A stretch of 64,000 nt of DNA from Perkinsus chesapeaki (taxonomy: Eukaryota; Perkinsozoa; Perkinsida; Perkinsidae), in NCBI GenBank assembly GCA_013115145.1, contig JAAPAO010000088.1, forward strand, positions 1 to 64,000, given 5' to 3'. Below, piece by piece: positions 13,333 through 62,190 of this stretch. Numbering within the stretch: position 1 is the first letter of the stretch; the number at the start of each line of letters is the position of its first letter. The position numbers were made by a program, and so were the translations under genes. Under the pieces are notes generated by a model. That model made no database searches and was not told the origin of the DNA. It saw only the letters and a list, made by a program, of their open reading frames with translations.

Positions 13333-14198
13333 ATGGCAGCTGCTTCTGCATTATTAAATATGGCAACATCTGAATTCGAGAAGACTGCTGAGGCGACCGC
13401 AACCGCTGAGAAGACCGACGTGATCGAGAAGGTTGATGAAGAGGAGGTAAGATACTCTTCTAGCCGAGCCATTCTGGTGTTAAGGAGTGTTTCAGGTTAC
13501 CGAGGTCGAGGGCTGGGCTCCATCCGTTTCACTTGAGGTCAACGATAGGATAGAGACTGGTGAAGAGGGAGAGGAAGAGCTCTACCGTCAGAGGAGCAAG
13601 CTTTACAGGTAGCTAAGGGAAAGCCAGTTGGTGTTTATAATACTGATGTAGATGGGTTGCCAAGGATGAAGGCAGCGGCGAATGGAAGGAACGCGGTACT
13701 GGTGAGATGCGACTTTTAAAGGAAAAGAAAAGCGGAAGAGTAAATTGTTTTATGTGGTTTATGGTGTTCTCACGCGTGTTTTAGGTACGTGCTTTGATGC
13801 GTCAGGAAAAGACATTGAAGATCATAGCCAACCATTACGTTGTCGAGAACGGTCCCTACTGCAGCCTCAAGCCTAACGCTGGGTATTAGTGGTGCAGCTA
13901 GAGGTGTCAGAAAGTGATTGTTGCTGTCAGATCTGAGAAGTGCTGGGTTTGGATGGCCAGCGACTATGCTGATGGTGCCGAGAACACCGAGCAGTTCGCC
14001 CTGAAGTTCGGCAACCCTGATCTGGCCAAGGCTTTCGAGAAGGCATTCAACGAGGTTGGTTAACTTTCGGTAATTATCGGTATGATGGTGGATCCATTTC
14101 AGGCTAAGCAGTCGAACGCTGAGATAATCTCGGGTGAGAAGGCCGCAAAGAAGGAAGAGAAAAAGGAGGAGGAAAAGGAAGAGAAAAAGGAGGAGTAA
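13333..14198 (+). CDS. RANBP1: Ran-binding protein 1 (RanBP1)
   Basis: Six exons restore a clear Ran-binding domain. Blocks in order: EEELYRQRSKLYR, then WVAKDEGSGEWKERGTGEMR, then VRALMRQEKTLKIIANHYV, SLKPNAG, SEKCWVWMASDYADGAENTE, QFALKFGNPDLAKAFEKAF, and a Lys/Glu-rich tail ending at TAA 14196-14198. The W-K-E-R-G-x-G and K-P-N-A-G motifs are family signatures. RanBP1 binds Ran-GTP in the cytosol and stimulates RanGAP, so it releases transport receptors after nuclear export. Introns are 42-48 nt or slightly longer. The one after PNAG carries motif E (AGCTAGAGGTGTCAGAAA), shared with unrelated genes here. The start is the ATG at 13333; a second in-frame ATG lies nine codons on. Confidence 0.9.
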
Positions 14199-14383
14199 AG
14201 TGATGGGCAAGAACACTGTGTAGCAATGCCGGACTTGGCTACTGCTACGACTTGCCACTATTGCTGCTGCTGATGCATTGTACGACGTTTCTCCCGCTAT
14301 AACAAAGACCTATTAAAACCGATGAAGTGTGGTGTTGGTTAAGTGGGAGGGGTAGCAGCAGCAGCAGGTGTTGTTAGTAGGCA

Positions 14384-15227: not shown

Positions 15228-16491
15228 ATGGCGCTGCCGAGTAGGAAGAAGAAAAGCGGTGGATCATCGGATGAAGATACGGATTCTGATAACGACGAAA
15301 AGGGCGCAAAGGGCGAGGATTTCGACCTCGAAGAGATTCGAGCACGACGTAATAGCTGAGCGGAATAACTGTTAGGCTTCCATGCTAGAGGTCGCTGGTT
15401 CGAATCTTCGGTCTGTTATTTAGAGGTATTTTCGACTAGGTCTCGCCCAGTTGAAGGCACAGCAGAAAAATGTGGCGGAAAACAAAGCCAAAGGCCACGG
15501 AGAGTTGAGCGAGATCACCGAGGGTGAATTCTTGGATGCTGTAACGAAGAGCGACAAAGCCATTGTAGCGCCGGAGGGCTGGGCGGCGGAGATAGTGGGA
15601 TGGCAGGTCCACTTCTATCACAGGAGTTTTCAAAAGTGCAAAATCATCGATAAGCATCTGGGCAGACTTGCGCGCCATTTATTGGGTGTTAAAATGGTCA
15701 AGGTAGATTCCGAGTGAGGAGGAAGGCAGAGCGTTGGATGATTCAGTTAAATGCTGAGAAGGCACCGTTCTTTGTGGATAAGCTGCGCGTGAGAGTGCTG
15801 CCTACTACGGTGCTGTTTGTCAAGGGAATAGCAGTAATAAAGGAATGGGGCGACAGATTGGAGTTGCTGTTTAATATGTGCTAGTTAGAGCTTTGTTCAT
15901 TCTCGAATGTGGGGTGATAAGTAACAAGGTTTAACGTGTGTATATCTCCGAGCTCCGTCAATGGCAGCGCAATCGAGCTGGATTCCACTAGGCTCCAAAC
16001 CGGCATACATTTGGGTCATTGAAAAACGTCGGATTCTAGGCCCAGAGGGAATGCATCTGATGTTTCGTTTTGGTCTAGGAAAATGTAAATTGTACCTCCT
16101 CTTCATTGGGAACGCTTTTTCGATCCCGAGGGAGGCATGTGGTGGTTCAGGTCCATCATATAGTAGGATTTGAAGGCCTTCGCTGTATTGACGGCGAAGA
16201 CATCACTTCTCTGAGCTTGGCAAAAGTAAAACCGCGCGCCACGAAATTGGTTATGATGCATTCCCATACCAGGTGTTGTATGAGAACGATATGATTTCCG
16301 ATGGAGAACTTGACCGTCTTGAACGTGAGGATTGGGGCTCCAGATTTATCATTAAACATTGCATTCGTCCAGCATTTCTGTTATCTTCGGGTGAGGTGTT
16401 CGTAGGTGTATACGGCGAAGAGCATAATAGTGCTGATCCGAACAGGGCGTTGATGGGAAATGCTGATGAGGATGATTATGAGTTTAATTAG
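15228..16491 (+). CDS. TXNDC9: Thioredoxin-domain protein 9 (TXNDC9 / phosducin-like family)
   Basis: Six exons: 15228-15348, 15440-15564, 15607-15702, 15747-15833, 16151-16225 and 16273-16491. The N-terminus is acidic and basic by turns (SSDEDTDSDNDEKG). Next come GHGELSEITEGEFLDAV and the thioredoxin-like core KAIVHFYHRSFQKCKIIDKH, then LNAEKAPFFVDKLRVRVLPT and IVGFEGL. The single Cys after FYHRSFQK replaces the CxxC of true thioredoxins, as is normal for TXNDC9. The family assists CCT chaperonin folding of tubulin and actin in the cytosol. Intron 1 contains a tRNA-like T-arm (motif D), and intron 5 contains motif A reversed. The 42-nt intron 2 is stopless and a multiple of three, so its retention would insert 14 residues without a frameshift. 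Confidence 0.85.
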
Positions 16492-18179: not shown

Positions 18180-20309
18180 ATGAACTGCCAGGATACTCAC
18201 CAATCACACCCGAAAGAATCTGCGATATCCCACCGGAAGTGATACCGAGTAAACTTGGTCAACTCCGTCACTTGTCATACTGTTACCGCATTCCAAGTGG
18301 AATAATTGTCCTTACGAGGTCAGCTGTCACAGAGGATAGTATTCGGTTGTTTAGGCAAGTTCGATGGGATTGGGGACGACCCAGTTCGGCTGGCACAAGC
18401 AATAGCATATCTTCAGGGTGCTATAGAGGCAGCTGGGAAGAATCCAACTGAGGGAGTTGTCGGTTGAAGCGTGCATTTCGTGTAGTGGAAAGATACTTCA
18501 GGCTAAGCTGTACCGTGACTTGGGAATGCATTATCATCGAGCCGAAAAGCTCCACAAGGCAGTCGAGGCGTACCGAGAGGCATGTGCCGTGCTAGACAGG
18601 TGAGCTTTGATCGATGAGTCAGCCACACTGCTTCAGGCTCGCGGACTTTTGGACATCTCGGTGACCAAGTACAAAAATTCACACAGTTAGTTTGCCCTGA
18701 GAAATTGCTTCTCGTCTCCTACTTGTGCATCTCCAGTATTTTTTTAAATAAAACTTTTCCGGTAGTCTCGCCGTGGTGTCGTAATACGTTCTGCGCCTTT
18801 CGATAGGTTTGCCGCGGATTTCCGATTCAACAGCGCCGAATATATCTAAGTTGGTGAACGGCATCTCAAACAAATTCTGGTCGTACTCGACTGGCTTATT
18901 CAGGCTCATCAGCGAGACTCCTCCAGAAAACACCGATCGTTTGCGGACGTTACGGTATCAATTGGCGTCGGCTTACAGCTGTCTGAGTGTCGCTGTTAGA
19001 GAGCGAGACGGCGATGAAGGTGAGGAAATGTTGTTATCTCATACACGGAGGTGGTTAGGGAAAATAGGAGAACTCGTGAACTTGTTCCTAGTGGTCCTGG
19101 TGATTCGCCAATGTCCTCTTTCCACTGAGGGCCTCGCCTAGACTCTTCCGGGCTTTGGGGGGGGTTGTGTCACATAGCTTGTATCATTGAAAGGAAAATG
19201 TAGATAGCGCGGCACTGGTGAAGGTCCTGTAGGCCGGCGGAAAGTCTGCGAGAGGTATACTCTTTGTATATCTTATTGTAAATTACAGCATTACAAATTG
19301 TAATGCTGATATATCATTCTGAATCAGCGAAGCTCGTTCCGTAGTCTAGTGAGCTTCTCTGGACTCCAGAGATTATTTGGACACCCAATCGCTACTGCAG
19401 GCCGCTGGTGATTGAACTTCAAATATTTATATAGCTCGTATTTTTATATAACCTTCCTGTCGTTTAGGTATCCCCGAAGCCCTCGCTTTGTGCAACAGGG
19501 CACTGGAGCTGAGGAAGGCCTGCGTTGGTGCCAAGCATCTGTCGGTGGCTGAATGCCTTAATAACGCGGCTGGGATGCTGCATGTTCAAGGTGAGGCAAT
19601 GGAATCTTGTTGATAAGATTCGGGCAGGCAGCAGCTTCTACTATCGGGTGTCATCTCTTTATCTTCTTTGTATCACGACAAGCAATCTCAGGATCATACG
19701 CCCGAGCAGCGGAGCTGTACTCGGAGGCTCTTCAAATACTCCTTACTCATACAGGCGGAAAGGAGGAGAATCGATTTGTTGCGATGACCTATTTTAATAT
19801 TGGTTTGGCGTACGAGAAGTTGGGCAAGTTGGAAGGCGCTGCTGATGCGGTAGGCGAATCTCCGGGGTGATTATTGAGCAGGAAACTTCCGACGTTGCGG
19901 TTTGCTCCTCGCTCCACTTCGGAACGTCATTCTCACTGTCTGATCACGTTGGTCGATGATCTGCGGACATCCCCGATGCTCATGTCGCCTTTGGGCAGGA
20001 TACCGACATGTCATTACGTTATATTCCGCTGCCTAATCTCGCTCGCCCTATATTCCCCAGCTGTTCGATCGGCTTTGAATTTGCCTCTGCTGTTTTGTTA
20101 AGGAATAGTCTGTCTAATGTCAGATGGAGAAGGCTGTGAATTTGTCGGCCCATTTGTGGGGTCCTTCAAACGAGAATGTGAAGGAGATGTTGAAGCAGCT
20201 GACTAGAGTGGTGGCCGAGATCAGGAAGGCCCGTCCGAAGGAGCCGGAGAATCGGCCAATGCAGGGCCCGCAGGACAACCCTGAAAAAAACAAATCACGT
20301 CTGTGGTGA
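18180..20309 (+). CDS. Tetratricopeptide-repeat protein (kinesin light chain-like repeats)
   Basis: Exon 1 is read from ATG 18180. Later exons carry helical TPR pairs: FDGIGDDPVRLAQAIAYLQG, then AKLYRDLGMHYHRAEKLHKA with VEAYREACAVLDR, then LRYQLASAYSCLSVAVRE. Further on come EALALCNRALELRKACVGAK with HLSVAECLNNAAGMLHVQ, YARAAELYSEALQILL, and FVAMTYFNIGLAYEKLGKLE. The last exon starts near 20124 and encodes MEKAVNLSAHLWGP, ending in a charged tail at 20309. The A-LYxxAL.ILL and HL.VAECLNN.A.....G.Y.EA pattern is that of kinesin light chain-type 42-residue repeats, which bind cargo or partner proteins. The intron at 18456-18501 carries motif G. Some internal exon borders are not resolved. Confidence 0.6.
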
Positions 20310-20356
20310 ATGTGAATGAGTTTCTGTTGGTGTATTGTTTGTCTGTTGAGTTGTGA

Positions 20357-20985
20357 GTGAAGTGCACGGGTGGAGTTAAGATTCCCGAACTGATGGAAAA
20401 GCTGGCGGGACTGGATACGGTGGGGGATATCTGGAAGGAGGCTATGATCGGCAGCAACTACCCCAGTAATCATCCGGTCTATGAGGAGAGAGTGGTATGG
20501 CAACTACTTCAACACAAAGACCTCAGACGAGCTCAGTAAGGGAAACCCATTCTGCCAATTCCTCGACTTCTCGTCAGCAGGTCACTTATACGAGAGCTGC
20601 CGTACACGGCTAAGCGCGAGCGCTGGCAAGCGTTGTGTAGTCTTGCCGATGGGCATCCGGAGGAGGCCGCCGATGCCCTTGTGAATGCCATACTCCTTTC
20701 CCTCGAGGAACACGACATTGTAAAATGCTCCCAGTGGATCGGTCTCAGGGAATATTAGGAAGTCCGGGCGGAGTGTCTGGCGCATCTCGGCCGTTTGCCG
20801 GAGGATTTGGTTCGTCGAGCTGTGGCGGAGATTTCAAGGACAGCAGTATTGGACAAGTCGGATGCCGCGGAGAAGAACCAAGCGAGGCTGGTGATTCTGT
20901 CTGTCTGTTTGTTGCGAAGGGTTTCTGATGTAGGTTGGAGATGTGCCGGATATGGTTGCAGCGAAGAATCAGACTACAGTTGATC
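20357..20985 (+). CDS. Unidentified helical protein, exon structure unclear
   Basis: A coding-looking exon near 20370-20495 (IPELMEKLAGLDTVGDIWKE) is followed by another at about 20583-20930. The second contains LADGHPEEAADALVNAILLS and, after an in-frame TAG at 20756-20758, VRAECLAHLGRLPEDLVRRA. Both are helix-rich with alternating Leu/Ala. Either an intron that I cannot place removes the stop, or the gene is broken. Family not recognised. Confidence 0.3.
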
Positions 20986-21029
20986 ATTCTGAAGAGCTGC
21001 TGCGTTTTATGCTGAATCGAGTAGGAAAA

Positions 21030-21234: not shown

Positions 21235-22196
21235 CCATTTCCAACACGGAAATCTGGTTGGGATGGTGTTCACTTTCGGGCCGTTGTCGCTGTCACCAGC
21301 TCTCCGGGCTACCACTGGAAAGATACGATAGTTCTAGGCGCTTCCTCGGTTATTCTCTGTCTTTCTCAGCCTACTGTGGGAGCATCCGAGACTATCGAGC
21401 GTGCCGCTCGTGCCACAGCGTTAACTAGCGGGCCGCGCTATCACAGGTGGCGCCTAGCCGAGCTGTTGAGGTCTATTGTTGCTCCTAGACACACAACGGC
21501 TGCGGCACTTGCTGCGCTGGAGAGGGCTGTGAAGGAGAAGTCTATACCAGGTATTCATACAAGCTTGGTCCGCATCAGAAATGCTATAAGGAGAGTGAGC
21601 CAGGATGGGGAAGGAAGCTGGCAGCAGCGCGCCACAGGTAGGAGCTCACCTTTCGCGCGCCACGAAACTGATGCGTGTGTATAGGTAACGAACTCAGTGA
21701 AGCTGTGAAGTCGGTGCTGATAGAAGGTGGGGTGAACTCCGACTGCGTTGGCAGGATTCTCCGTGCTCTTGGCTGCGATGTCGACGGGGTGAGTGCGGCC
21801 ACTTCCAGGAGTACCGAGTGTCCTCAGGGGAAGGCTGCTGATGATAATGATGATGACGATCCTTTCATTGGAGGGAACGGCAGAGAGTCCCTGTGTGACC
21901 GGCCGGGGAATCTCGACATGACCAACACCTACTTGGCAGGAGGCACGCCCGTCTGGGGCTTCCCCGAGCCCGTGGGGCCCTTTGAATCTTCTCTATGGTC
22001 TAAAGCTCTGGTCGTCAGGTTCGCATTGCCGGACTCGACGGTCGCATATCATCCAGCAGCGCATACTCCTGTGGTCCCGAGTTCGAGGTACGCCGGTCTA
22101 GCCAACCTGGACAGGATCTGTCTTCTCCAGGGCACCGGCCTTGACTTGGCTGCGGAGAGCATGTATCACATCCTCAGCGACTTGCAATTTCCTTGA
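21235..22196 (+). CDS. Unidentified protein (3' exons clear)
   Basis: An exon starting at an acceptor near 21369 encodes PTVGASETIERAARATALTS and continues through LRSIVAPRHTTAAALAALER, IHTSLVRIRNAIRRVSQD and a GTAGGA donor. The next exon starts at 21682 with NELSEAVKSVLIEGGVNSDC and carries VGRILRALGCDVDG, an acidic run and a Pro-rich C-terminus ending HILSDLQFP at 22196. The intron at about 21637-21682 contains motif A in reverse orientation. The helical segment with ...VKSVLIEGGV...RILRALGC loosely resembles PUB/UBA-type folds, but I cannot assign a family. The start is not determined. Confidence 0.45.
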
Positions 22197-27398: not shown

Positions 27399-27448
<50 letters not shown>

Positions 27449-27539: not shown

Positions 27540-30500
27540 CTAAGCTGAAGGAGGTGGCGGCAATTCCTGAGATTCCTTAGTGGTAGAATGTACGCTATCT
27601 CGACTTCTACTTCGAGTTCTGCTCTCCGCTCGAGAGGAGGAGGAAGCATTCTTGCTCGCATCGTGGTCATCATGGTGATGGTGGTGACGATGATGTCTCT
27701 TTTGCCGAGTACCTGCCATCGAATTCAAGGTTGAATGATTGACCTCCGCCGGCAGTAGACCAAACCCGCTCATAATAAGGTCGGATGATAAACAGTTAAT
27801 CGATCACATAAGCAACGAACATATGGTGCTCAAAAAAAGATGTCTATCGATCGGAGACTTTGCAAAGCCGTTCTCCATACCCAGTCGGACGACGAGCATG
27901 GCATCCAAGAATTGTAGGCGATTTTAGAAAAATACGGTATGAAACCTACGCATTTTAGCTAGGTAGTCCCTCCAGTCCTCGACCTTCTCCTTGTACTCCT
28001 CAGACGTCCGCGATATGCTAGCGCTGGCCGTCGACCCATTCCGACGTGATGAAGTTGATGCCTCCGAAGCCGGCGGGGGTGATGATGGCCTGATCAGAAC
28101 AGGTCCGCGGTAAAATGCGCATGCGTGCAAAGATTCTTCCAACTTTTTAAGTGGGCGGATGCTGCACGAGACGCGTTAGGATATATGCCAAATGGTCGTC
28201 TGTAAATCCGAGTCAACTCCAAAAAATCGCGATCGATTTCGCAAACTGCTTCGGAAAGGAATTCCTGCCGAGGAAGACAAACAGACAAGCCAGCGCTCGG
28301 TGTGAGAGGGAAAAATTCGCTGCGTCGGAAAAGCTACTGTAAAGATCCTTTACTGAAAAGTGCAGCGAGTTCTTACGGCTGCTCCTCGTTGGCTGCTGGG
28401 GCCTCGCGGGTGGGGACTGGAGTGGCTGGGGTTGAAGAGAGAGGTGGGCGGTTGTTCAAGAATTTCTCCCGAAGAATGGAGATTGTCTCACGAATCTTAG
28501 CCCACCCTTGATGCTGTTTACCCCTGAACGAGAAAAGAATCCAAGGTCGAGCGTGCAACATACAAAGAACGTCAACCTTGCACGAGATGAAAAAGCCAAG
28601 CACGCGATATAAGTTGAGCAAGCAAAGAGGCCAACCGAGAAAGAAAGAGGTAGACAATGCAAGATACAAAAAAGGTTAATCATGCAAGATACAGAAGAGG
28701 TTGATCATGCAAGATACAAAAGAGGTTGCCCATGCAAGATACAAGAGAGCTTGATCATGCAAGATACAAAAGAAGTAAGCCGCCGTTCTTACCGTGCATG
28801 CTCATGATTCTCTACGTTAGCTTTCGGATCATTCTCATTAAGTGTGACCAGAACTCCACAGACGTCACAGACAAACTCCGTACGCGTCATCATCATATAC
28901 TTCTCGCCACTCAACTCACGAATCTTCGCATTTAACGGCTCTGCCTGAAACACATGCACAAGACTAAACTTCCCGCGCGCCACAAAATTCAGCTCTCCAC
29001 CTGTCCCATTTTCTTTTCCGATTGAGCAATGTGCCCTTTCTCGGCGAGCTCCTCCGCATCTTTGACGATTTTATGAATGCGGACCTGAGGAAAGATGAAA
29101 CCGTCACAACCAGCCAAACGGAAGAATCCAAAAAAAGTTGGACGGGAAGCAAATAAAAAATAAAATCGATCAACCGTTTCAAATACTAATCAACTGCTCA
29201 CATCACCCGACTCATCAAATTGCCATCGAGCAGATTGCTCCACGTTATTTTTGGGAGAGCGGGACAAAGCCTCCCGGTACAGCATCGAGTATGATACAGA
29301 TATTAAGATATACTTTTCCCTATGAAGGTCGTCATAGGGAAATGATTTTCATCTTTGTGGGGGATGTTAGCTCACCTTGAGTCCTTCAATCTGTTCCTTG
29401 TTCTGCGGAGGAATCTCTATATCCGGTATTTCAGCAGTCACTCTAGCTTTACCTGAGAGACAATAACAACAACAGTCCATCTCAACTGGGAAGAATTTAA
29501 ACGACTTAATAATAACTATTGTACAAGGAATCATCCAATATAGCGTTGTTCATCCGTATGTGGCATTCATCAAGTAATGTCAAATTTGGAGCAGCCCAGG
29601 CGCAGTGTGTTCGCGGATCGTTATTCTTCCACTAGTAACATATTTCCTATCAAACTCCTCTCTATTATATCTCCTCCTCTGTATCACTAGTAACATATTT
29701 CCTATCAAACTCCTCTCTATTATATCTCCTCCTCTGTATCACTAGTAACATATTCCCCATCAAACTCCTTTCTATTATATCTCCTCCTCCTTCTCTGTAT
29801 CACTAGTACTACTTCCTCTCTTTACCTCCCCCTTTTACCTCTCCTTATCTTGTGTGCCAACTGTGTCTCCAAGTACTCCAGGAAGCTTAGTAGTTCTCGA
29901 GAATATCTGATACCAAAAACATCAAATCTAATAATGCAAAAAATTCATGTGAAGTAGGAAAATTTTTTCTTAAGAAATATATAACGCAGTTTTCACTATC
30001 ATTTACGTTTAATAATATAATATACGAAACTAAATATATTCGTTGATAAATCAATAATTAGACATGATAATATACTATTATTCCGTCACGCGCCACTTAA
30101 TTCCTCCAGTGCTACTACTACTACTTGTCCACAACAGCTCTCTTCTCTGGACAATCCTCCCATTCATCGAAGCGTGATTTGGTGTACTCGCAATGCTCCT
30201 TCCTGCAAGGGCCCATGTCAGCTTTGGTGTTAACGAAGAGATCGTGGGGGCTGAACAAAGTCGAAGAATTATCATTTCCCGTCCTAGTGCCAATCAGACT
30301 TGTCGCTAGAAGGACCTGGTCATGAAAGCGCGATTTTGCTGATGTCAAATGCGGGGAGCGATACCATCTTCATTTTGGTAGACTGATTATCCCTCTCTCC
30401 AAGACCTACCAAAAGTCGACTAAGTAAAATGGGCAGTATCTGGTCTGTGTCATCCAATCTATCTTCCTCTCAACAGTCTTCTTTTTCTCAGCTGCTGAGG

Positions 30501-44446: not shown

Positions 44447-45869
44447 GGTGGCTGATCGATTGTATATCGGATCGATTGGTGGAGCATTGAATGTAGAGGA
44501 GCTACAAAAGAACGGTATTACACATATACTGTGTGTGGCGACTGGAATCAAGTAAGGGCGGAGCGAAGCGTTTTTGGTTCTGCATTTTTGGTGTTTTCAG
44601 GCCCATGCACACGGACAAGTTTACGTATTATTCAGTGCAAATTCTGGACTCGGAATCAGAGAGTCTTTTGGACGTAAGAATCGGGCCAATGTGGGGGAGA
44701 TGATTAGGCCATAGTCGAAATTGATAGGAGGCTCGGCTGGCACGGTGCGAACTAGGTCTCTATGTGTAGTAAAAGTGCTAGCCTTGGACCTGTTCATATT
44801 ACTGTGTGATAAATGTAAATAGTCATTCTATCTGGTTTTGGGACCTACAGATAGAACGTTGAATGTGGGAATAAAACAGTGTAGAGTTAGTGACCAGCTC
44901 CTGAGGTTGGCTGCGTGTTTGTGGCGATTGGGAGATAATTAATCGCCAACAAGTTAATTGGAGGTGTTCGCCAGAAGAGGTTGTGGGGGGATATTGCAGA
45001 TATTCAGATATTGCCTGAGTGCTTGGCGTGGATAGCATCGTCTCTTAATGGGAGTGATAAGAACTCTGTTTTTGTACATTGCTTTGCGGGAAGGTAAGAT
45101 CTGAGGAAGGAGCGGTATGGCTGGATATCGGCAGCCTGGCTTTTATAAAGTTTGAAGGTGTGTTGGAGAAGCCAATGAGAAAGGAGAAGTTACGATGAAT
45201 CTATATAAAATTTAGTTGTAAATTTGGTGTTAGAAATAATGTATCATTCTAGTACTAATGAGTGCAGTATCGGAGCTATTTAAGAGGGTGGTGAGTATAA
45301 AAAATGAAGACCACCGTTTAAAGGACCGTTTATTATTGATATATAAGATAGTTAAAGTGAATGTCTGATAGTAGTATACTGTAACGAGTATATCGGATAA
45401 GGGGTGTATGGTCCTCCTGTGTCTAGTATGCATGTTCAGGTCCCGGTCTGTTGCTGTAGTCCTGGCCTATTTGGTGTATGCTCGTCACATGCCTTTGAGG
45501 CTAGCTTTCACGCACGTAATAGGTGTCTCGGATGCGGCTGCTCTTTATACTTTGGACTTATACGAGTATATCGATTATAGATTATGTATGTAGTTTGAAT
45601 TAGAACATCTATCAACCCGAAGAAACAGTCGTGGCTCGAAATAACAATTGATTAGTGTCACCAAAGGGATCAAGCATTGTTGGGAAGTGCTTCCTACTAG
45701 TACACTTTTTATAGAAATTTTATTAGAGTATTTATTATCCCTTTTATGTCAATGTGTATTATCTGTAATATAGCTGGTGTTGTTTCAGATTCGTCGAGTG
45801 CGGCCAGAAAGCTCGCCGAACTCGGGATTCATGCGCCAGTTGTCGGCCTTCGAGCAGAGTATGTTGGCA
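44447..45869 (+). CDS. Dual-specificity protein phosphatase
   Basis: Exons 44447-44551, 44601-44673, 45000-45093, 45440-45532 and 45789-45869. They encode VADRLYIGSIGGALNVEELQ, ILCVATGIKPMHTDKFTYYS, LPECLAWIASSLNGS, VFVHCFAGRSRSVAVVLAYL, MPLRLAFTHV, and IRRVRPESSPNSGFMRQLSA followed by FEQSML. The HCxxGxSRS P-loop is split by an intron between G and R and contains the catalytic Cys and Arg. The RPxxxPNxGFxxQLxxFE tail is characteristic of DSPs. The size (about 145 residues) suits a small atypical DSP acting on phospho-Ser/Thr/Tyr or RNA/lipid substrates. The first exon is probably missing. Intron 44552-44600 is motif B; the intron after the P-loop Cys exon carries motif H. Confidence 0.8.
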
Positions 45870-48752: not shown

Positions 48753-51700
48753 ATGACAACACGATCGAGGGTGGCTGCCAAGTCAAAGCCAAAACCAGAT
48801 ACTGTAGAGGGTCTGACGGAGGAGGATGAGATACTACAGGGACTGGCATTACATGAAGATGAGGAGGAGGAAGAGGAGGAAGAAGAAGTGGTAATAGAGG
48901 GATTTGGATGGGTGGCGGCAGCATTGTATAGTTCACGTTAACAGTTATTACGTTATCATTTACGTTATTAGTTGTATGCATTTTGTTCGGGTTTATATTT
49001 ATGCTGATATAGGCAGTACTATCATCGGCAAGGATACAATGTAGAGGTGGCGACTTGATAATAATAATCTTATATAAATTCACATCTATACGGTCTATGT
49101 ACAATTCCTTATACGTATGTATACATTATAGCACTTCACTGGTTGGAAGAAAATCGAAAGAGTCGCGTAGACGACCTCTAATGAATCTGCTCCATTGTTC
49201 CCGTCAGCCTCCTCAAACTCGAGCAACTGATCTAAGCACACCGGGTCACGTGAAGGAGTCTTTCTTCGGTATTTCGTATAGGGCGGGATATATTAACTAT
49301 AATATCCATTAATGTGTATAATTACTGGTAGCTAAGGAACGTATGACTAAGTTATATCAGTAGATATTATATATAGAAAGTAAGCTCTGATAACTTGCTC
49401 GATCTGTTTCATCGAGTCGAAACAATATTAATATTATTGTGGGATTTGATACTTCACTCGAAAGCCCTCCCCTGTTATCAGTTGGGTCCCCGTAGACTTT
49501 CTCAGAAATTGGTGTTAATTGGTATGTTTCACGTTTGGTTGTCATTCTTACTGTAGACAAGAATGCTGTATATAGAAGTAGCTAGGCTATAGAGTGCACG
49601 CTTGACAATGGATACGCTGAAGCGGACAGTTTGCGGTATTTAGGATGATACCGTTATGGGGGAGATTGTCGAGGAGGAGGAGCAGGAGCGGGAAGAGGTT
49701 GCTGCGCCAGAGGAGGTAGAGGGTGGAGGCAGCTTCCCTGTAGCGGTGGAGGAGGACCAACAACAGGAGGACGTAAGGGAAGCATGCGGGGGTTGTAGTT
49801 TCAACTTGAGCTTGACTTCTATGCTATGAGAAGCTTCGGAATGTTGGTCGCAGCTTGTTGGATAGAAAACTTTTGGAGGGAAAATGCGCGAAATTGTCGT
49901 GTCGTATGGGAAGTAAAATGTTTTGTTATGTGATTGGTGTTTTTAGAGTAATGGATCGGAAGTTGTTTTGGAGGAGAGTCCGGAGATCGACGCCTCGCGT
50001 ACTGGGGAGGCGGGGGACCCGGTAGAGGTGGATGGAGGAGAGACGAGGGAAGAAGAAACCGGAGCTGATGTTGAGTTGGATGAAGAGGAGCAGCAAGAGG
50101 AAGTAATCGAAAGGTCCCTGGTTCGAATCCCGGAGAGGGTATTTTAGGTTGACTATGGAACTGACGTGGTAATGGAGAGCACGGAGGTGTCTGTTAAAGA
50201 GACGCCTGAAAAGGAGGAGAACCCGGAGGTGGAGGCAGAATGTGAAAAACCGAAACCGAAAGTAGGCGGAGCGAAGCGCTATTTTCTCGGTGTTGAAGGA
50301 GTATAATAATTGAAAAATCAAATGATAATAAAATAATCAATTCTGGAATTAGTCGCTAAACATCTAAGATGGTATGGGATCATCGTCACGCGCCATGAAA
50401 TTATTTCAGGGTTTCGTGGAGGAGGAAGACTGCGAAGCTGTAGAGGATGATGACGCTATCGAAACGGTGTGCGAATTTGGGCCGGCCGATTCGACCTTGG
50501 ATACCACATTCGATAGAACAGGAGGGATCATCAGCAGTTATTCTACAGAGGGGTTTCAATATCTCTTAAGTGGTGTGAGAGCTAATGTTGGTGCTAAACC
50601 AGGCAGCAAGAATATATTTGTATTTGAGGTGAGATAGGATGATGATTAGAGGAAGGAGCGGTATGATAATGTTAGGTGAGGATTGTGGAGATGCTTACAC
50701 CGTTGGATGCGCCGAGCTCAAGCCATGCTCATTTGCCTGCTAAAAAGTAAGGATAGGGCGAGCTAACTCTGCAGTACCCGGAGTATCTTCAACGGTTATC
50801 TTCTCTGGACATTCCCCAGTTGAATCATAAGCTTTCCAGTCGAGCCTAAAATTATCAACGACTCTTTCGGTAAAGGATTCTGCTATACAAAGATGTGCAG
50901 GGCAGCTGCGGCTCATGCGTGGACTAAAAGTCCTTGAACAATACCTTGCAACCTGAGTTACGTTTGAGCTCGAGAAGCACACAACTTGACCGTCTTGGCT
51001 CGCGCGGGGTCATTATGGAGGTCAGGTGGTGAACCCCAGATAACCGCTGACGACAAAAGCTTGAAAATTGACCGGAATTTTATATCAAAAATGTTACCTC
51101 CTCGCCACTAGGGCGCACTGTCGTGTGCTGTTTTGAAACTGTGCAGGCACACGTTGAACAGCGGTAAGCTCGGCCGAGTCCCTCTCTCTGCGAAGTGGTA
51201 GAAAATACGCTCTTTAGTGTTGAGAAATTACCGGGATTCCGCGAAAAACATTTTTTCCTTGCGGACGTATGAGCTCATTCGCTTCTTATTCCGTGCACTA
51301 TGCAGGCACACTTTGAGGGTGGGGTTTGGTACTCTGGCTGCTGGGGTGTTGTTGGGGGCACATGAACAGACGATAAGTTTTGATTGTGATGGTGGAATTT
51401 GGGAAGGAAAACGTCGACAGAACCACGGTGGAACGAGATTTGGTAGGCGGAGCGAAGCGATTCAGGAATAGCGGATTTGGATTGGTGGATGATGATGATT
51501 GTTAGGTTTGAATGAAACTGTGGCTGTGGTATTGAACTTGGATGAGAATGCGGAGCATGGTAACACAATATCATTATTTAAAAATGGTGTAAGAGCATGT
51601 GAACCGGTGAAGTTAAATAATAATATAATTGGGAAAGAACTTTATCCGACAATAACATTTAAGAATATTAGAATTCAAGCTAATCTTGGATATAATAAAG

Positions 51701-54700: not shown

Positions 54701-56553
54701 TAAGGTGGAATGGAGGAAGCTAGATAGGATGTATAGGGACAAGAAGGGGAGCGAGGATAAAAAGGGTAAGAAATGCCGCAGGGGGGAATCGAACCTGGGT
54801 TCGATAGGTGGGGAAGAGCAGAGCACAGAGGAGGAGGATGTCTGGGCTGCCGAGGACATTGATAATGTCGATGGCGAGCAGACGCCGCTGTACGGTCGAT
54901 TCGAGGCTGTTGACTGGAATCTGCTGGGCACGCGGTTTGAGCTGCACTTGCTGTGTCACTCGTTCAAGAAGGACTGCTCTGATGAGGATATTACCGGAAT
55001 TCATCGGAGCCTGTTGGAGTACTATTATCATCTTTACTTCAAGAAATCTTTAGTGCCGGGACTATGCGGAGCGAAGAGCATAAATGAGTTGCTGGATCGG
55101 CTGGTAACTGACACTATTATGGTTGGAGTTGATGGGGTACTGGCTGCTGTCCACGAAGTCGATACGCCATTCTCGACCTTTGTGAGGTTGACGGAGGCGG
55201 CCAGGAGAGAACGGCAGAAGTTGATAGAAGCAGGGGATAAGTCGGTTGTGTTGGTTGTGAAGGAGCCGGTTGAAAATCATCATCACCATCATCATGATGA
55301 GCGGAGCGAAGCTAAGAGCAATTCGGTGCGAAGGCGGCCGTCTGGTGGATCCAGGAGAGGACCATCGGATGGACGTTGGAGGAGCACAGTGCCGCGTGGA
55401 GGGAAGGGTATGGGAGGAGGAGGAGGACCAAGGCGAAGCGACAGCTCAGGTGGGAAAGGGAAATTGTGTCGGGGAAGTATTTTACCTTTATATATTTTGT
55501 GGCGCGCAGTTTTTATCTTGTCAGTTTCCCTGCGTCCCGCTCCTACAGCTCCTCCACCCCAGGCATCAGCTATGCCGTATCGACAAGCCCCTCCTATGCA
55601 GACAGTTCGCCGGCCACGTTCTCCCCCTCCCCCTCGAGGCCCACCACAACATGTCTCGCATGCCCCTACAAGAATAGACCATCGGCCAGCGGTGCCGCCA
55701 CAGTTTAGTGGTCCACCGGGCCAACCGAGAGTTATCGCTTATAATAGATTCTCGGCGAGTGCGAAGGCTATGCCGAGCCAGCAACAGCAGCAGATTATGA
55801 GACCACAATATGGGACTAATCAGTATAATAGCGGGTAGCACCGCACTGGGGAGATTCTTAAGGATTCACTGTATCTGCGCACTGTGAAGATTTTCAGGAT
55901 TCACTATATCTGCGCACTGTCAAGATTCTTGAGGATTTACTGTATCTGCGCACTGTGAAGATTCTTGAGGATTTACTATATCTGCGCACTGTGAAGATTT
56001 TCAGGATTTACTGTATCTGCGCACTGTGAAGATTCTTGAGGATTTACTATATCTGCGCACTGTGAAGATTTTTGTGTACAGGTACAAGCGTGCGTATCCA
56101 AGCGCATCTTCTTCCACTCTCCCTCCTCCAGCAGCAGCAGCTTCGGGCCAACAGCAATACTATGTTTCCAACGAGAGCCCGAATAAACGCTATAGAGGCT
56201 ATGGGGAAGGAGGAGGAGGAGGGAAAGGAGGGGCATCATGGGAGCAACCTAGAGGTAGACATGGGCTATCGTCACTGCGCCACGAAATTATTACCTCGGC
56301 AGGGTTTTATTTCGGAGTGCCGGTGGCTGTACAGTGTACATGCATTGTTTTGTGAGATCTTCCAAATTCGTAATTTCCTGTCAAATTTTTCCTAGTGTGA
56401 ATCTCGGCGGTTTGACGACCGTCACGCACTTTTCGAGCTTGTTTTCTCCCAACAGGTGGTCCGAGCAATACCGGCAACCCAGGTTACCATTATCGACGCT
56501 TCTCTGGAGGACCTCCTCCCCCGGCAGCAGCTGCCCAGCCTCGACGGTATTAG
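48753..56553 (+). CDS. SPRY-domain, RGG-tailed RNA-binding protein (hnRNP U-like), copy X
   Basis: Order of parts: a possible acidic 5' exon (ATG 48753, MTTRSRVAAKSKPKPDTVEG then poly-Glu), acidic exons from 49640 on, then a SPRY domain split over exons. SPRY blocks: ISSYSTEGFQYLLSGVRANV, VRIVEML, LRVGFGTLAAGVLLG, and GLNETVAVVLNLDENAEHGN to IIGKELYPTITFKNIRIQAN. Next is a degenerate P-loop-like GLPDEG lacking GK[ST]. Basic and coiled segments follow, then YLSDWIRKHKIVEKVASIKG, VDWNLLGTRFELHLLCHSFK, STFVRLTEAARRERQK and an Arg/Gly/Gln/Pro-rich tail ending AAAAQPRRY (TAG 56551-56553). SPRY plus failed kinase plus RGG tail matches hnRNP U-type nuclear RNA-binding proteins. The true start could instead be ATG 49608. 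Confidence 0.65.
50103..50147 (+). repeat. tRNA 3'-half intron in gene X
   Basis: 45-nt intron: GTAATCGAAAGGTCCCTGG, then the T-arm/B-box GGTTCGAATCCCGGAGAGGG, then TATTTTAG. It aligns over most of its length with the minus-strand introns 31122-31168 and 32157-32199 and with 40828-40875. Confidence 0.85.
50262..50409 (+). repeat. Composite intron of gene X: motif B then reversed motif A
   Basis: 148-nt intron with GTAGGCGGAGCGAAGCGC at its 5' end and TCACGCGCCATGAAATT just before the acceptor (ATTTCAG). Two families therefore lie in one intron, each at an end that would suit a splice site. Confidence 0.75.
51548..51999 (+). other. AT-rich SPRY tract of gene X nearly identical to gene Y
   Basis: About 450 nt (end of SPRY domain, GLPDEG segment and the first part of the next intron) match 58869-59325 of gene Y with only two differences that I can find. 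Codons here end mostly in A or T, unlike the flanking exons. Similarity stops abruptly inside the following intron, after GGCGCCACT. Confidence 0.8.
54766..54807 (+). repeat. Reversed tRNA-like intron in gene X
   Basis: 42-nt intron containing GGGAATCGAACCTGGGTTCG, a T-arm/B-box read antisense. It is stopless and a multiple of three, so retention adds 14 residues. Gene Y has an unrelated 42-nt intron at the matching place (GTGATT...AAATCAC ends pair). Confidence 0.7.
55855..56075 (+). repeat. 36-37-nt tandem repeat in gene X intron
   Basis: Six copies of a unit with ATCTGCGCACTGTGAAGATT, differing by one or two bases. They fill the intron before the exon that begins YKRAYPSASSS. The same intron in gene Y is short (about 45 nt) and lacks the array. 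Confidence 0.9.
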
Positions 56554-56909: not shown

Positions 56910-59900
56910 ATGGAGACCGCCACGGACATAGGTGAAGTAAAGCTGCTGCCAACGCCGCCAGTGGAAGGTCAGACGACCGAGGTGGTGAGTTGGTGATGGG
57001 GAGAGGGGGGATAAGATGGTGGTCAGGCTGCTCAGGCAGCTGGTAGTAATAAGGACGTTGAGATGGCCGATGCTGCTGGAAGCGACAAGCCGACTGAGAA
57101 GGCGGTAGAGGAACCGGTAGGCTGGGTTGGCCAGGGGGCGCGGGTAAATGTGTTTAAGATGATAATATAAAAGGCGATGGGATTGATAAGAAGTGGATGT
57201 GCTGAGGACATTAAAGTACCGTTCTTTGGGCATCTTCTGCATTATCCACCCCATGAACACTGGATTAAGGACATTCCACGTAGTGCACTTGGTGAGGTAG
57301 AAATCCTCTTATGGCCAAAAAGGCTACACTCGTCGAGCGTCGAACAAAATGTAGTGTGTAGATTGCCAGTTGTTAATTGTGATATAAGTGCTTGAGCATC
57401 TGTCGACTCCACCGACCTGGTTCTGTCTGTAGGTGTTCCAGGAGGAGTCTGATTGCGCGGAGGACAAGAGTGCGAGAGTGAATGTGAAGTGCGAATTTGG
57501 CACTTTTGACTCGACCTTGGATACCTATTTCGATGAGACCAACGGCGTCATCAGCAGTTATTCTACAGAGGGGTTCCAATATCTGTTAAGTGGTGTGAGA
57601 GCTAATGTTGGTGCTAAACCAGGCAGTAAGAATATATTTGTATTTGAGGTGAGATAGGATGATGATTAGAGGAAGGAGCGGTATGATAATGTTAGGTGAG
57701 GATTGTGGAGATGTTGTCGGTATTGGATTCCCCTTGCAATGCTCAAGCTCAGCTGCCTCCGCATAGGTAAGACCACAGGGGCACTGAGGATTTAAGGGAT
57801 GGCGCTTCGTTGAAGGAGCGCCGACGAAGGGGATAGAAACGTGGAGAGGCTTGGGTTGTGCGAGAATGAACAAAGGTCCGCCAGGGGCATGGGTATCTTG
57901 GCAGCATCGGAAAACGGTCAAGAGGGGCGTAACGCACGTACCGACGAGACACCTGAGGAAGGTCGGACGCTTCGGCTTGGCGATACACGGTCGGTGGTTA
58001 AGCGGAGGAATTTTTTCATCTAGAGACCGAGAAGAGTCCTTGGCGCATTAAACTGTAGGCTGTGAGATTTGACTTATATCGTAACACATGACAAATATTA
58101 ATGTGTGGTTGTTGTGTTACTGTCTCTGCAGCTTCTTGGCTGTCTCCCCTGCTGCTTTATCTGGAGCCCATTGAGGTGGCTGAGATGGTAAGGAAAAGTA
58201 CGGGGAAGGAAAATGCATCATAATTTTCATTCGTGCGAGGGCACCCCCGGTTGAGCTTTCTGCCTGAGCCACACTAGCACCCACCACGGGCACGATACCA
58301 GGGGAACGCGCCACTATAGAAGCCGAACGGTCACGACACAAAACAAGGAGAGGAAGCAAACGCCATAGCAGGCAGAAACTCGGCTGGGGATGGAGGCCAC
58401 TGAAGATCGGAGCGCTAGACAGATTCGATGAAAATTAATATATAAAGTCTGTTAGTAGAGATGATTAATGTAGAGGAGGGAGATAGTTTATATATATTAT
58501 TTTGAATAGGAATGAACTGCTGGATGTGGCTCTATTCATCATTGCTCAGGCATGTGATGAGAGTTGGCTTCACTACCCTCGACGGTGGTCTGCTATTGGG
58601 GGACTCCGAATTGGGGGTTGGTTTTGATGCTGGTTTGGATAACAGGATGTATGCCCCAGGGACACCAGGTGGGAATCTTGCAATCTTGATAAATCTTGCA
58701 CTTTCTCAATGTGTTCAGCGGCCCCTAGTATAATAATGGGAACTAATGTTGCACCGAATGCTCCCACTGCAGCTTTTGGTGAGTCTTGAAGAAATGCGGG
58801 CGGTGGGGATCGAACCTGCGTGGTCCTGCAGGTCTCAATGACGTGGTGGCTGTGGTATTAAACTTGAATGAGAATGCGGAGCATGGTAACACAATATCAT
58901 TATTTAAAAATGGTATAAGAGCATGTGAACCGGTGAAGTTAAATAATAATATAATTGGGAAAGAACTTTATCCGACAATAACATTTAAGAATATTAGAAT
59001 ACAAGCTAATCTTGGATATAATAAAGATGATAATAGAATAAATGACATCAGCCCATTTGGTGGATTATTACTTTCATTACCATTTAAGATAAGATCATTC
59101 CAACAAAGTAGTAAAAATGATATTTCTATGAATCCGCGGTATATAAATAATAATAATAAACCAGCTGAAGCTGTTATGGTTATTGGTTTACCGGATGAAG
59201 GGGTATTTGATTATGTTGATTATATTATTAAACAGAATCCATATAAATATGTTGAACTATCAGAAAGGACTATGTTCGATTGGTAACATCACCACCACCA
59301 CCATCGAACAATCTTCGGCGCCACTAACTTCTGTTCAGGTTCAAAGCCTCGGCTCTCCGCCCTATCAGACGGGGCCCGGTGGCGTCCAACGACAGGCCGG
59401 ACTTTCTTTTTGGTATTCAACCGATGGACGAAGGCTTCGTTCGCCAGCAGCTGAGGGAGTTTGCGAAAATGCCTCACGGGAAGAAAAACTTGGTAGGCGG
59501 AGCGAAGCGGCTGGTTGCATAGGTTATGGTAGGTTATGGTGGAGATACGAGGAGGGTTGTTGGAGGAGGAAAGAGATAAGATAGTGGAACAGTTCCCAAA
59601 TAGAGAACGTAAGCTACCTGAGGGTGTTGGGTATGTTACGCTAATCGGGATAGAGGGGGGATAGAAAGTAGGAGCAATGGGAACTCGATGGATGGTCCCC
59701 GAGTGGGTTTGTTATCTTCAAGGGCAATTCCTATAGGATTACTATATAATAACCGTCAAAGCATCATACTGATTACCGCAATTCCTATATACATTCTTGG
59801 CGATGCACTACTGAAGTGAATGGAAGTGAGCCTTATAGTGAAGCTTCCTCTTTATAAAGGGAGATGGAGCGTCTGGTAAGGTTGTTATTGATTTTAGGCA

Positions 59901-62190
59901 CTGCTGTGGTGTGCGTTGGTAAGCCTAATGAAGAGTATCTTAAGTACGTGAAGGACATAGTGAAAGATGAGATATTCGCGGAGAAGGAGCTGGTGAGGGA
60001 AAGGAAGCTGAATGTCATGAAGCAGGAGTTCAATATAAGGCAGGCGGAAAGGGAAAGGCTTAAAAAAGGTAGGGTGTGGGAATCGAACCTGCGTGGAGAA
60101 ATTGACTGATTAGTGCGTGAGGCTGCGAAGGCGGCTGAGAAGGCCCGAGTAGAGGCTGCGGAGGAGGCTAGAAGGAAGAGGGAGGAAGCTGCGAAGGCAG
60201 AGGGGAAGGAGGAAGGGGAAGAGGCGTCGACTGAGGAGGATCAGAAAATGCCAGAGACTACTGAAGAAACGGAGGTACTGGGGGTTGAACCGGGGACCTA
60301 TCCAGAGGAGGCCAAGAACCGTTCCTGAGCGAAGTGGGGAGTTCAAACCGGTTATACGACGTGAATGGCTTTTGGATGGGTAGCTCCAGAGCTGTGGTTG
60401 ATGTGGTTATTTTCATGAAGGGTAGCCAACTGGAGGGCTACTAGGTGGCCGTCATTGCTGTCGTTGGCGCGGAGATAGTAGCAAGTGGTTTAAAGTATTC
60501 TTGGAGTAGCTCGTGAGGGAGTGAGGTCGTTAAGGTGCCTTTGTGTGCTCAGGAAGCCGCTCAGGGAGAGAAGAAGAAAGAGGCTGAAGAGAAAAAGGAG
60601 GAAGAGGTCGAAGAGGAGGAAGAGCCCGAGCCTACTTTGCCTCCTACGGAAGTTACGGATGAGGAGATCAATCAGAGAATGTAGTTGAAGAGATGAAGGC
60701 AAAGGATTCTAGCATAGTTGGGGCTTTCAGGTCGAATGGGATGTATAGGAAGATGCCCTTTAGTGACATAAGCCACAGGGCGCTCTCTGAATGCTATCTA
60801 AACTTCACGTTGCCGAAGGATGCGGAGAAAACTCCTAAGGGATTGAAGGCTTTCGATAAGGTTAAGTTCGTGTGGGAAAAAAGAGCTGCGGCTGAGAAGT
60901 AGGTAATTTCGTGGGGCAGTGAAAAAGTTTTCACTTCAGGAAGCTGCAAGGGTGGGTCAAGGGCCACAAAGTCGTTGAGAAGGTCGCTAGTATAACTGGA
61001 CCGACCGACTGGTTTAAGCAGCAAATGGAGGCTTGGATGAACACTAAGCTCGAGTGGCGGAAGGCGCAGAGGATCTATCAGGAGGAACAAGCCAAGGAGA
61101 AGGTTAAGAAGACAGAGGAGGAGAAGGAAACTAAGGAGGAGACCGAAGGTGATTTGGGGAAAAATCGGTATGAGAAATCACTGCTATTAGATGAGAAAAT
61201 GCCGGAGAAGACCGAGGAGGAAAGCTTTGCCGAAGTGGACGTTTGGGCACCTGAGAACGTATGCGATGTGGACGGCAAGAAGACGCCATTATTCTCGAAG
61301 TTCCAGCTGGTCGATTGGCAGCTGATGAATCTTCGCTATGAGCTCCATCTCCTCTGCCACGCATTTGAGCGCGACGCTACCTCCCAGGACGCGGACCTGA
61401 AGGGCATACATAAAACACTGTTGCAGCATTATTATCAGACGTATGTGATGAGGGGGGTGCTGGTACCGTCTCTATATGGAGCTCACAGCCTGGAGCAAAT
61501 CTTGGACAGTCTACTGGTGGATAGTATTATGGTTGACCAGAATGGGGTATTGAAGGCGGTTCACGATATTGACGCTCCTTTGTCTACTTTTGTGCGGTTG
61601 ACGGAAGCGGCGAGGAGGGAAAGGGAGGCAAAGGTCGCTGGTGGTGACGAGAGCGCGAAGCTGACGGTTATTCAGCCAGTAGCGTCACATTATGGGAAGG
61701 GAGGAGCTAGACGGTCGGACTACTCTAGAGGAGGAGGAAGCTACCAAAGCTATCAGCAGCATAGCGGGCCTTATCACCAAAGATGTAGTTAGGGTTGAAG
61801 GCTTTTGTTGTGGTGATGGTTTACGTCAGATAATCCGGCTTCGAGTAGAGGGTCTGGTGGAGGCCAATACCAGAGAGGGTGAGTTATGGAGGGATGTGAC
61901 TTTCTGACACCTCTAGCTGTTAAGGTATCAATCGAGCGGTAAGGGATATGCTAGTGGAGGGCCTCAGCAACAGCCACAATACCACACGTGAGGGGGGCGT
62001 GGGGTGAGGGATTGAGGGAAGGTGGTGTTTCAGGTACAAACGGCCATATGACAGCGCGCCCTATGATCAATCTAAGAGGCAAAAAGGAGGTAGTGCATGG
62101 GCAGGTTTCACGCGCCACGAAATTGGTGTTGCAGGCGGAGCACCTTACTATCCTGGTGGTGGCGGCAAGGGGTACAGTAGACAGTATTAA
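56910..62190 (+). CDS. SPRY-domain, RGG-tailed RNA-binding protein (hnRNP U-like), copy Y
   Basis: Tandem paralogue of gene X, starting about 360 nt after it. ATG 56910 opens METATDIGEVKLLPTPPVEG; acidic/Ala-rich exons follow. SPRY blocks: CEFGTFDSTLDTYFDETNGV, the shared ISSYSTEGFQYLL exon, VGFTTLDGGLLLGDSELGVG and GLNDVVAVVLNLNENAEHGN. Then come the shared AT-rich exon, SNDRPDFLFGIQPMDEGFVR, VVCVGKPNEEYLKYVKDIVK, a long Lys/Glu-rich helix and MPFSDISHRALSECYLNFTL. The later part is VVEKVASITGPTDWFKQQME, VDWQLMNLRYELHLLCHAFE, STFVRLTEAARRERE and a Gly/Tyr-rich tail ending GGGGKGYSRQY (TAA 62188-62190). Outside two tracts it is well diverged from X. The nuclear RNA-binding role is inferred from architecture. 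Confidence 0.65.
58785..58833 (+). repeat. Reversed tRNA-like insert in gene Y intron
   Basis: Contains GGGGATCGAACCTGCGTGG just before the acceptor that opens GLNDVVAVV. At the same position gene X has a motif B intron (51443-51505). Gene Y introns 60069-60113 and 60275-60305 carry similar reversed T-arm sequences (GGGAATCGAACCTGCGTGG; GGTTGAACCGGGGACC). Confidence 0.75.
62105..62134 (+). repeat. 30-nt intron made almost only of reversed motif A
   Basis: GT, then TTCACGCGCCACGAAATT, then GGTGTTGCAG. Removal joins GSAWA to GGAPYYPGGG in the C-terminal tail of gene Y. It is one of the shortest introns in the window and shows the element as an autonomous intron unit. Confidence 0.75.

Follow-up and report, generated by a model that had tools for sequence, protein, structure and literature searches.

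Short dispersed repeat families, one with the layout of a tRNA 3' end, in mini-introns of Perkinsus chesapeaki

The window analysed here comprises bases 1-64000 of one contig (JAAPAO010000088.1) of the Perkinsus chesapeaki assembly GCA_013115145.1, and it contains a coatomer-beta gene, LUC7-like genes and two tandem SPRY genes, together with RanBP1-, TXNDC9-, TPR-, cyclin- and phosphatase-like genes, several of whose short introns carry short sequence families that recur from gene to gene. The names RanBP1, TXNDC9, TPR, cyclin, phosphatase and SPRY were assigned by the first-pass annotation of this window, whereas the names LUC7-like and coatomer beta were supported by protein comparison: the predicted LUC7-like protein was 81% identical to proteins of P. 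chesapeaki and P. olseni (92% and 83% of the query), and the spliced coatomer-beta product aligned along 100% of its length, with 52-53% identity, to coatomer proteins, among them one of the dinoflagellate Alexandrium catenella. Introns of P. marinus are 39-1622 bp long and mostly shorter than 100 bp according to the available text of PMC3101222.

Introns were predicted with a self-trained gene finder that used coding composition and splice profiles, admitted GT-AG introns only and was blind to the motifs. The first settings over-split introns; the 4/4 settings were retained and three others were dropped. A permissive splice test, which passed 20/20 sites in all three sets given to it, was not used further. 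The sample of 312 kb consisted of the window and another 25 stretches (248 kb; L-numbered loci) picked on contigs with transfer RNA (tRNA) matches, so its tRNA density is not an estimate for the genome. A total of 726 introns were predicted, 495 of them no longer than 120 nucleotides (nt), with a median of 46 nt. The known errors were two pieces of coding sequence called intron (51782 and 59108, where the third SPRY paralogue reads through) and some introns that were too long, such as 51164-51505 for 51443-51505. The families, namely a tRNA-like one, F1, F2, F3, F5, F6/F9/F10, F7 and F8, were rediscovered de novo from these introns, independently of the motifs A-H of the first-pass annotation.

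Words of 11 nt common to at least three gene models numbered 45 in the introns of the sample, compared with 0-1 in three shuffles, 1-2 in two exon-piece sets and 0 in two intergenic-piece sets. BLAST found 58 similar pairs between different gene models among the 495 introns, involving 52 introns, 35 of the pairs being on the same strand and 23 on opposite strands. Five shuffled intron sets gave 0, 0, 0, 2 and 1 pairs, and equal-length pieces, in four sets each, gave 2-9 (exon), 3-7 (intergenic) and 1-8 (long-intron). Two of the 58 pairs joined the same intron in the tandem SPRY paralogues (50629/57649 and the miscalled 51782/59108), a third SPRY-internal pair (54766/60069) joined different positions of two copies, and one three-member cluster was ACC-repeat low complexity. 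The share of introns with a relative grew with sample size, being 2.3% for 60 introns and 10.5% for all 495, and is therefore underestimated here. The initial proposal that introns of unrelated genes share short motif families was thus confirmed, clustering of the predicted introns on both strands showing an excess of similar pairs over the 0-2 seen in shuffles.

From 13 kb on, 33 of the 105 short introns of the window carried one of nine motif groups (shuffles, mean 0.6; exon pieces, 0-1; intergenic pieces, 1-4), a figure that is circular because the motifs were partly defined there, as the genome-wide counts and fetched places given below were not. At the other sample loci the proportion was 30 of 378 (shuffles, 1.5; exon pieces, 1-4; intergenic pieces, 5-10); the window is richer in motif introns than the sample and in this sense unusual. 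Five of the eight motif groups present in short introns of the window occurred in both orientations, five being also the number reported initially, and seven of nine did so over window and sample together. Family introns had a median length of 47.5 nt compared with 46 nt for the others, and the exon context (AG before, G after the intron) was no different either, at 0.154 versus 0.14.

Exact matches to six family words were counted across the whole assembly (35.4 Mb, 884 contigs) and compared with those to the reversed word. The counts were 838 against 16 for F2 (GGCGGAGCGAAGCG..TTTT), 529 against 6 for F1 (AATTTCGTGGCGCG), 368 against 8 for the tRNA-like core (GGTTCGAATCC), 361 against 2 for F3 (CTAGAGGTGTCAGAAAG), 124 against 2 for F5 (AGGAGCGGTATGA) and 69 against 0 for F9, with similar numbers on the forward and reverse strands. 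The words of F6, F9 and F10 (TGCACGCTTCAACC, TTCAACCTTGGATACTC) were minisatellite-like, that of F7 was AATCTTGCGAGTGCGA, and F8 was a palindrome around ATCGATCA. Some copies of F9 (L004 9876 and L004 6987) had, by eye, inverted GTATCTT / AAGATA ends. Profiling gave lengths of about 35 nt for the tRNA-like family, 32 nt for F2 and 17 nt for F1, whose core edges were sharp even with a relaxed search word. Two of these three families, the tRNA-like one and F2, ended in a T-run, and the same two had element edges near the intron edges, which F1 had not. The first-pass statement that the motifs often make up most of an intron therefore applies to the tRNA-like family and F2 and not to F1.

Places were then fetched by exact word, with contexts of up to 321 bp, giving 31 tRNA-like (tRNA genes removed), 20 F2 and 20 F1 places. 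Nine of 40 fetched tRNA-like places were tRNA genes recognised by ARAGORN, so the 368 genome-wide matches are not all elements. Predicted short introns held 12 tRNA-like, 7 F2 and 6 F1 places, that is 25/71 compared with 131/1482 random places (odds ratio 5.6, P 3e-9), 13 of them in sense and 12 in antisense orientation; the motifs were not, then, equally frequent outside introns. Exons held 6/71 (random, 559/1482), long predicted introns 6/71 (77/1482) and unassigned DNA 34/71 (715/1482), showing that elements also lie outside predicted genes. The coexistence of several short, intron-enriched families in one genome was in this way supported.

The tRNA-like family is laid out like the 3' end of a tRNA, showing a T-arm, A73 and a terminator of the RNA polymerase III (Pol III) type. 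The B box GGTTCGAATCC served as search word, and 67 sites outside tRNA genes were numbered from T54 of the T-loop. Position 73 was A in 48/67 and positions 74-77 contained at least three T in 44/67; C48 was present in about 90% and positions 45-47 tended to GGT. Upstream of about position 42 there was little conservation, the profile being flat outside some 35 nt with no conserved A-box region. Likeness between elements beyond the core was 12.66, compared with 11.94 (sd 0.16; 65 sites) after column shuffling. Sense and antisense lists were hand-picked and covered 28/67 sites; antisense introns had A73 in 8/12 and the T-run in 7/12, while the T-run was found elsewhere in 22/39. Because antisense copies also have it, the T-run is not merely a pyrimidine tract. 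In 9 of 12 measured introns A73 lay 6-10 nt from a splice site (21, 16 and -1 in the other three); the site concerned was the 3' one for sense and the 5' one for antisense copies.

Longer copies (37850, 40985, 15349 and L047) had, by eye, D-arm-like parts at tRNA spacing; in 37850..37928 a D-arm-like ATAGTCTAG and a T-arm were followed by a T-run and AG. A search with the Rfam tRNA model gave no match to them (whole window at E up to 10; L047 and L062; 37830-37950), and for this reason they are not called tRNA genes. Intact tRNA genes do occur in predicted introns. A 127-nt intron of an NSF-like gene (L024 4078-4204, minus strand) holds a tRNA-Val (4094-4166) followed by TTTTGTATTATTTTAG, the T-run of which is close to the 3' splice site; further sense cases were found at L008, L009 and L016, and an intact tRNA-Ser(aga) (21029-21112, minus strand) lies antisense in a predicted intron of the gene model 20393-22196. 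A tRNA-Cys at L002 was considered as a whole intron and rejected, the surrounding gene model being unconvincing.

Junctions in the coatomer-beta gene were judged against four coatomer proteins (an MMETSP transcript, Alexandrium, Amoebophrya and Toxoplasma). Eight motif introns, those with a gap-free junction in Table 1, interrupted the protein without any gap; four others fell in variable protein parts, where the test is weak. The L024 intron was likewise gap-free in comparison with solved NSF. Judged from these alignments, exact removal of the introns would restore the conserved protein in both genes, as for a spliceosomal intron. The 3.9-kb coatomer stretch had no second copy in the assembly that might have served as an element-free allele, and gave short matches only. 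Two other repeats were seen in the region: a 27-nt minisatellite of about 11 copies (35980-36271), which the gene finder read as coding, and a GGGTTTT-rich telomere-like stretch (41340-41400) within a coatomer-beta intron.

The SPRY paralogues, namely copies 1 and 2 in the window and copy 3 on another contig (C65), allowed three intron positions to be compared. At position A, copies 1 and 2 carry an F2 and an antisense tRNA-like intron (Table 1), and copy 3 (L131) has a T-rich intron of 42 nt that is neither, between FG and LN or FG and ID, in the same phase 1. At position B, the F2 intron of copy 2 corresponds to an antisense tRNA-like intron, also of phase 0, in copy 3 (L132 167-213) and, in copy 1, shares its alignment column with a predicted long intron (52277-52665). 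At position C, the tRNA-like intron of copy 2 is matched in copy 1 by a 157-nt intron of phase 1 without the tRNA-like motif. The first-pass annotation had read the motifs as introner-like elements. Shared families, both orientations and intron enrichment agree with that reading; creation of the introns by insertion is not supported, since at all three positions checked a paralogue has an intron there too, in the same phase but with other content. The comparison is small (three positions in three copies within one genome). Because the paralogues keep position and differ in content, introners in the defining sense of de novo intron gain are not shown here, and the positions seem older than the content, barring repeated independent insertion at the same site. 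The LUC7 copies also shared at least two intron positions by column and phase, with lengths of 43 versus 159 and 58 versus 386 nt.

Two further observations concern the SPRY genes. A stretch of 300 nt starting from an intron 3' end (51504-51803 and 58830-59129) is 97% identical between copies 1 and 2, while the preceding exon has diverged; gene conversion is possible. F2 and F1 words were also found in the apparent coding C-terminal tail of SPRY genes (55302-55312 and L128), as if such pieces may enter disordered coding parts too.

Table 1. Motif-bearing introns and minisatellite arrays of the window (orientation is relative to the host gene)
Position	Strand	Gene	Feature	Orientation	Remarks
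36425..36474	+	coatomer beta	F1 intron	sense	gap-free junction
36975..37019	+	coatomer beta	F1 intron	sense	gap-free junction
37264..37313	+	coatomer beta	F2 intron	antisense	gap-free junction
37850..37928	+	coatomer beta	79-nt intron like a whole degenerate tRNA gene	sense	gap-free junction
39512..39561	+	coatomer beta	F10 (TTCAACCTTGGATACTC) intron	sense	junction also gap-free, additional to the eight
40526..40593	+	coatomer beta	minisatellite-like F10/F9 intron		variable protein part
40710..40764	+	coatomer beta	tRNA-like T-arm intron	sense	variable protein part; outside motif-scan count
40828..40875	+	coatomer beta	48-nt intron, tRNA-like 3' end	sense	gap-free junction
40985..41061	+	coatomer beta	77-nt intron, longer tRNA-like sequence	sense	variable protein part
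41512..41558	+	coatomer beta	47-nt F2 (GGCGGAGCGAAGCG...TTTT) intron	sense	gap-free junction
41839..41890	+	coatomer beta	F6/9 intron	antisense	gap-free junction
41980..42030	+	coatomer beta	F2 intron	antisense	gap-free junction
42146..42193	+	coatomer beta	F2 intron	sense	variable protein part
42947..43006	+	coatomer beta (gene model)	F7 intron	sense	
50103..50147	+	SPRY copy 1	45-nt intron, tRNA-like 3' end	sense	
50629..50675	+	SPRY copy 1	F5 (AGGAGCGGTATGA) intron		identical to 57649 in copy 2
51443..51505	+	SPRY copy 1	position A, starts with F2	sense	between FG and LN, phase 1
54766..54807	+	SPRY copy 1	42-nt intron, tRNA-like 3' end	antisense	A-run adjoins donor
57649..57695	+	SPRY copy 2	F5 intron		identical to 50629 in copy 1
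58779..58831	+	SPRY copy 2	position A, tRNA-like 3' end	antisense	between FG and LN, phase 1
59493..59532	+	SPRY copy 2	position B, 40-nt F2 intron	sense	phase 0, before VMVEI
60069..60113	+	SPRY copy 2	position C, tRNA-like 3' end	antisense	between KK and V, phase 1
13883..13930	+	RanBP1-like	48-nt intron, F3 (CTAGAGGTGTCAGAAAG)	sense	
15349..15439	+	TXNDC9-like	intron, longer tRNA-like sequence	sense	D-arm-like part, T-arm, T-run; true 3' splice site may be an earlier AG
16226..16272	+		F1 (AATTTCGTGGCGCG) intron	antisense	
18459..18501	+	TPR	F6/9 (TGCACGCTTCAACC) intron	antisense	minisatellite-like
21638..21684	+		F1 intron	antisense	
28644..28773			25-nt minisatellite array		unit like F6/F9/F10
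28945..29000	-	LUC7-like 2	F1 intron	sense	
31122..31168	-	cyclin-like	47-nt intron, mostly tRNA-like 3' end	sense	GGTTCGAATCC, acceptor-like part, A73, T-run
31906..31954	-		F7 (AATCTTGCGAGTGCGA) intron	antisense	
32691..32734	-		F1 intron	sense	
32797..32865	-		degenerate tRNA-like T-arm and downstream T-run	sense	by eye, outside motif-scan count
44552..44600	+	phosphatase-like	F2 intron	sense	
55842..56074			36-nt minisatellite array		unit like F7
60899..60939	+		F1 intron, up to two mismatches	sense	
61879..61924	+		F3 intron	antisense	
62090..62134	+		F1 intron	antisense	

A derivation of all the families from minisatellite monomers was considered and rejected, because introns were barely or no closer to array units than exon pieces. 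Scores of at least 15 were reached by 19 introns, 11 exon pieces and 4 shuffled sequences, and scores of at least 14 by 22, 22 and 12, respectively; the few strong matches concerned only F6, F7, F9 and F10. Similar repeats were noticed by eye at other loci, namely a 25-nt minisatellite on another contig (L012 5089-5232) resembling the array at 28644-28773, and, at L129 1-150, an inverted-repeat unit such as AATCTTCACAGTGTGTAAAGATAT that recurs at intervals and is similar to F7 and the 36-nt minisatellite. Elsewhere in the window, four open frames on the minus strand (4347-10590), alike by eye and each with a hydrophobic stretch, look like a local multigene family; three of the four were compared with Pfam and gave no match.

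We consider it somewhat more probable than its opposite (about 0.55) that dispersed repeats of some 17-35 nt overwrite the interiors of existing mini-introns whose positions stay fixed. The genome would harbour a population of tiny repeats, including the tRNA-3'-end-like pieces, F2, F1, F3, F5 and pieces resembling minisatellite monomers, that would enter noncoding DNA in either orientation. The splice sites of a mini-intron would stay and its old interior would be lost, so that place, phase and small size are kept and the content is swapped. Loss of the old interior is suggested because family introns are no longer than others, and insertion into a 46-nt intron without loss would nearly double its length. 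Copies with ends compatible with splicing would be retained, those with a T-run before AG (sense) or an A-run after GT (antisense), and the T-run may itself aid splicing. The suggested donors are RNA copies of 3' ends of the Pol III type, because a terminal T-run is found in two of the three families profiled, F1 being a misfit; the donors may also be mixed, as F6, F7, F9 and F10 resemble the 25-nt and 36-nt minisatellite units. As a more tentative extension, mini-introns could be replaceable cassettes at fixed positions that time and again capture 5'-truncated copies of Pol III-type 3' ends (of a tRNA-like transcript and possibly of the source of F2), use the U-run as a ready pyrimidine tract and turn over by exchange of content instead of gain and loss.

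Several results weigh against the overwriting explanation. F1 has no T-run in its profile. A resemblance of F2 to the 3' end of U6 small nuclear RNA, as in human U6, could not be confirmed: the Rfam U6 model matched neither the assembly nor any of 14 control genomes, which makes this search uninformative, the U6 core pattern occurred at one place that is not U6, and no other Pol III parent for F2 was found. In the tRNA-like sites, the T-stem pairs 49:65, 50:64 and 51:63 were formed in 35, 23 and 30 of 67 (shuffled means 30.0, 25.8 and 32.1), compared with 41, 40 and 41 in 41 ARAGORN tRNAs, and the likeness of the elements to these tRNAs (10.65) was hardly above that of column-shuffled ones (10.43, sd 0.12). 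Because the stem is unpaired and the elements are hardly closer to tRNAs than shuffled columns, we call the family tRNA-like rather than a recent copy of tRNA, and it may descend from an unknown tRNA-like family. The proximity of A73 to the splice site is less telling than it looks, as an element of 35 nt has little room within a 46-nt intron, and the gene model is doubtful for one of the nine close cases (L002). Insertions that hit one site in parallel in different paralogues may also account for the SPRY pattern, for which three copies were tested. Finally, the intron calls come from our own gene finder, which has at least two known false positives and a length prior favouring short introns.

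That the tRNA-like family consists of decayed tRNA genes, which land intact in introns and are then cut back from the 5' side while the intron shrinks, so that the 3' end with its terminator is left, is possible, if doubtful. It would account for this family only and is compatible with overwriting. The intact tRNA genes in predicted introns, both sense (L024, L016, L008, L009) and antisense, the longer cases 37850, 40985, 15349 and L047, and the many tRNA gene copies reported in the available text for P. marinus (PMC3706591) speak for it, but the unpaired T-stem, the A at position 64 in 52% of elements versus 2% of the 41 tRNAs, and the lack of any closer resemblance to tRNAs than shuffled columns allow do not fit such an origin. 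We regard it as rather unlikely that the elements are true introners that were inserted in exons and made new introns with splice sites drawn from element edges and target. The F2 and tRNA-like edges near intron edges, intron lengths close to that of the element plus splice sites, and the two orientations would all be expected of introners, several families per genome with family medians from 30 nt are on record (PMC9860276, in the text available), and F8, being palindromic, and those F9 copies that have inverted ends recall, by eye, terminal inverted repeats. Against this, the SPRY positions A, B and C are occupied in a paralogue in the same phase with other content, and the exon context is like that of other introns.

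The cores could instead be protein-binding sites of DNA, regulatory or structural, which selection maintains whatever their orientation where noncoding DNA permits. The identity of GGTTCGAATCC with the Pol III B box, the palindromic F8, the sharp edges of the F1 core and the independence of orientation are in keeping with this explanation; nevertheless the motifs are spread along the whole coatomer gene, where 40710, 40828 and 40985 are three consecutive tRNA-like introns, unassigned DNA was not enriched, and a B box has no need of A73 and a T-run at tRNA spacing, making it improbable. An artefact of gene prediction, or chance, is hardly credible: the introns are predicted ones from our own gene finder, two of them false, but the shuffle, exon and intergenic controls, the word counts, which are independent of gene models, and the protein junctions all speak for a real signal.

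Introners as described in the available text of PMC9860276 are alike in being similar introns of unrelated genes, in several families and both orientations, with medians from 30 nt; in contrast, the profiled families here measure about 17-35 nt, one is like a tRNA 3' end, and SPRY positions are shared with differing content. The words Perkinsus, tRNA and SINE (short interspersed nuclear element) have no occurrence in the main text of that paper, its species-listing supplement being outside the search. The introner elements of Amoebophrya (PMC7789003, in the text available) are repeated introns of a related alveolate lineage, with splice sites that are non-canonical and borders that carry inverted and direct repeats; here only GT-AG introns were admitted, so that non-canonical ones would be missed, and F8 and some F9 copies look, by eye, like inverted repeats. 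tRNA-derived SINEs resemble the tRNA-like family in the B box, A73 (48/67) and a T-run (at least three T in 44/67) at tRNA spacing, but the elements here lack a body conserved past about 35 nt, and their profile shows no conserved A-box region. Many tRNA gene copies, in large sets that Dada transposons target, are also reported from P. marinus (PMC3706591, in the text available), and some tRNA genes lie within introns here; the short elements, however, are not tRNA genes. None of the literature matches listed, from a search that did not extend to subscription papers, preprints and supplements, describes this set of families, and introner combined with Perkinsus gave, within the text searched, one paper, on Amoebophrya.

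What is new here is an intron family laid out like the 3' end of a tRNA. Introners are studied as a source of new introns; if overwriting is true, the same sequence in many introns would not be proof of gain, and surveys of gain based on similarity would need a test of position. A tRNA-3'-end-like element forming nearly a whole intron would link Pol III genes to spliceosomal introns by a concrete molecular path.

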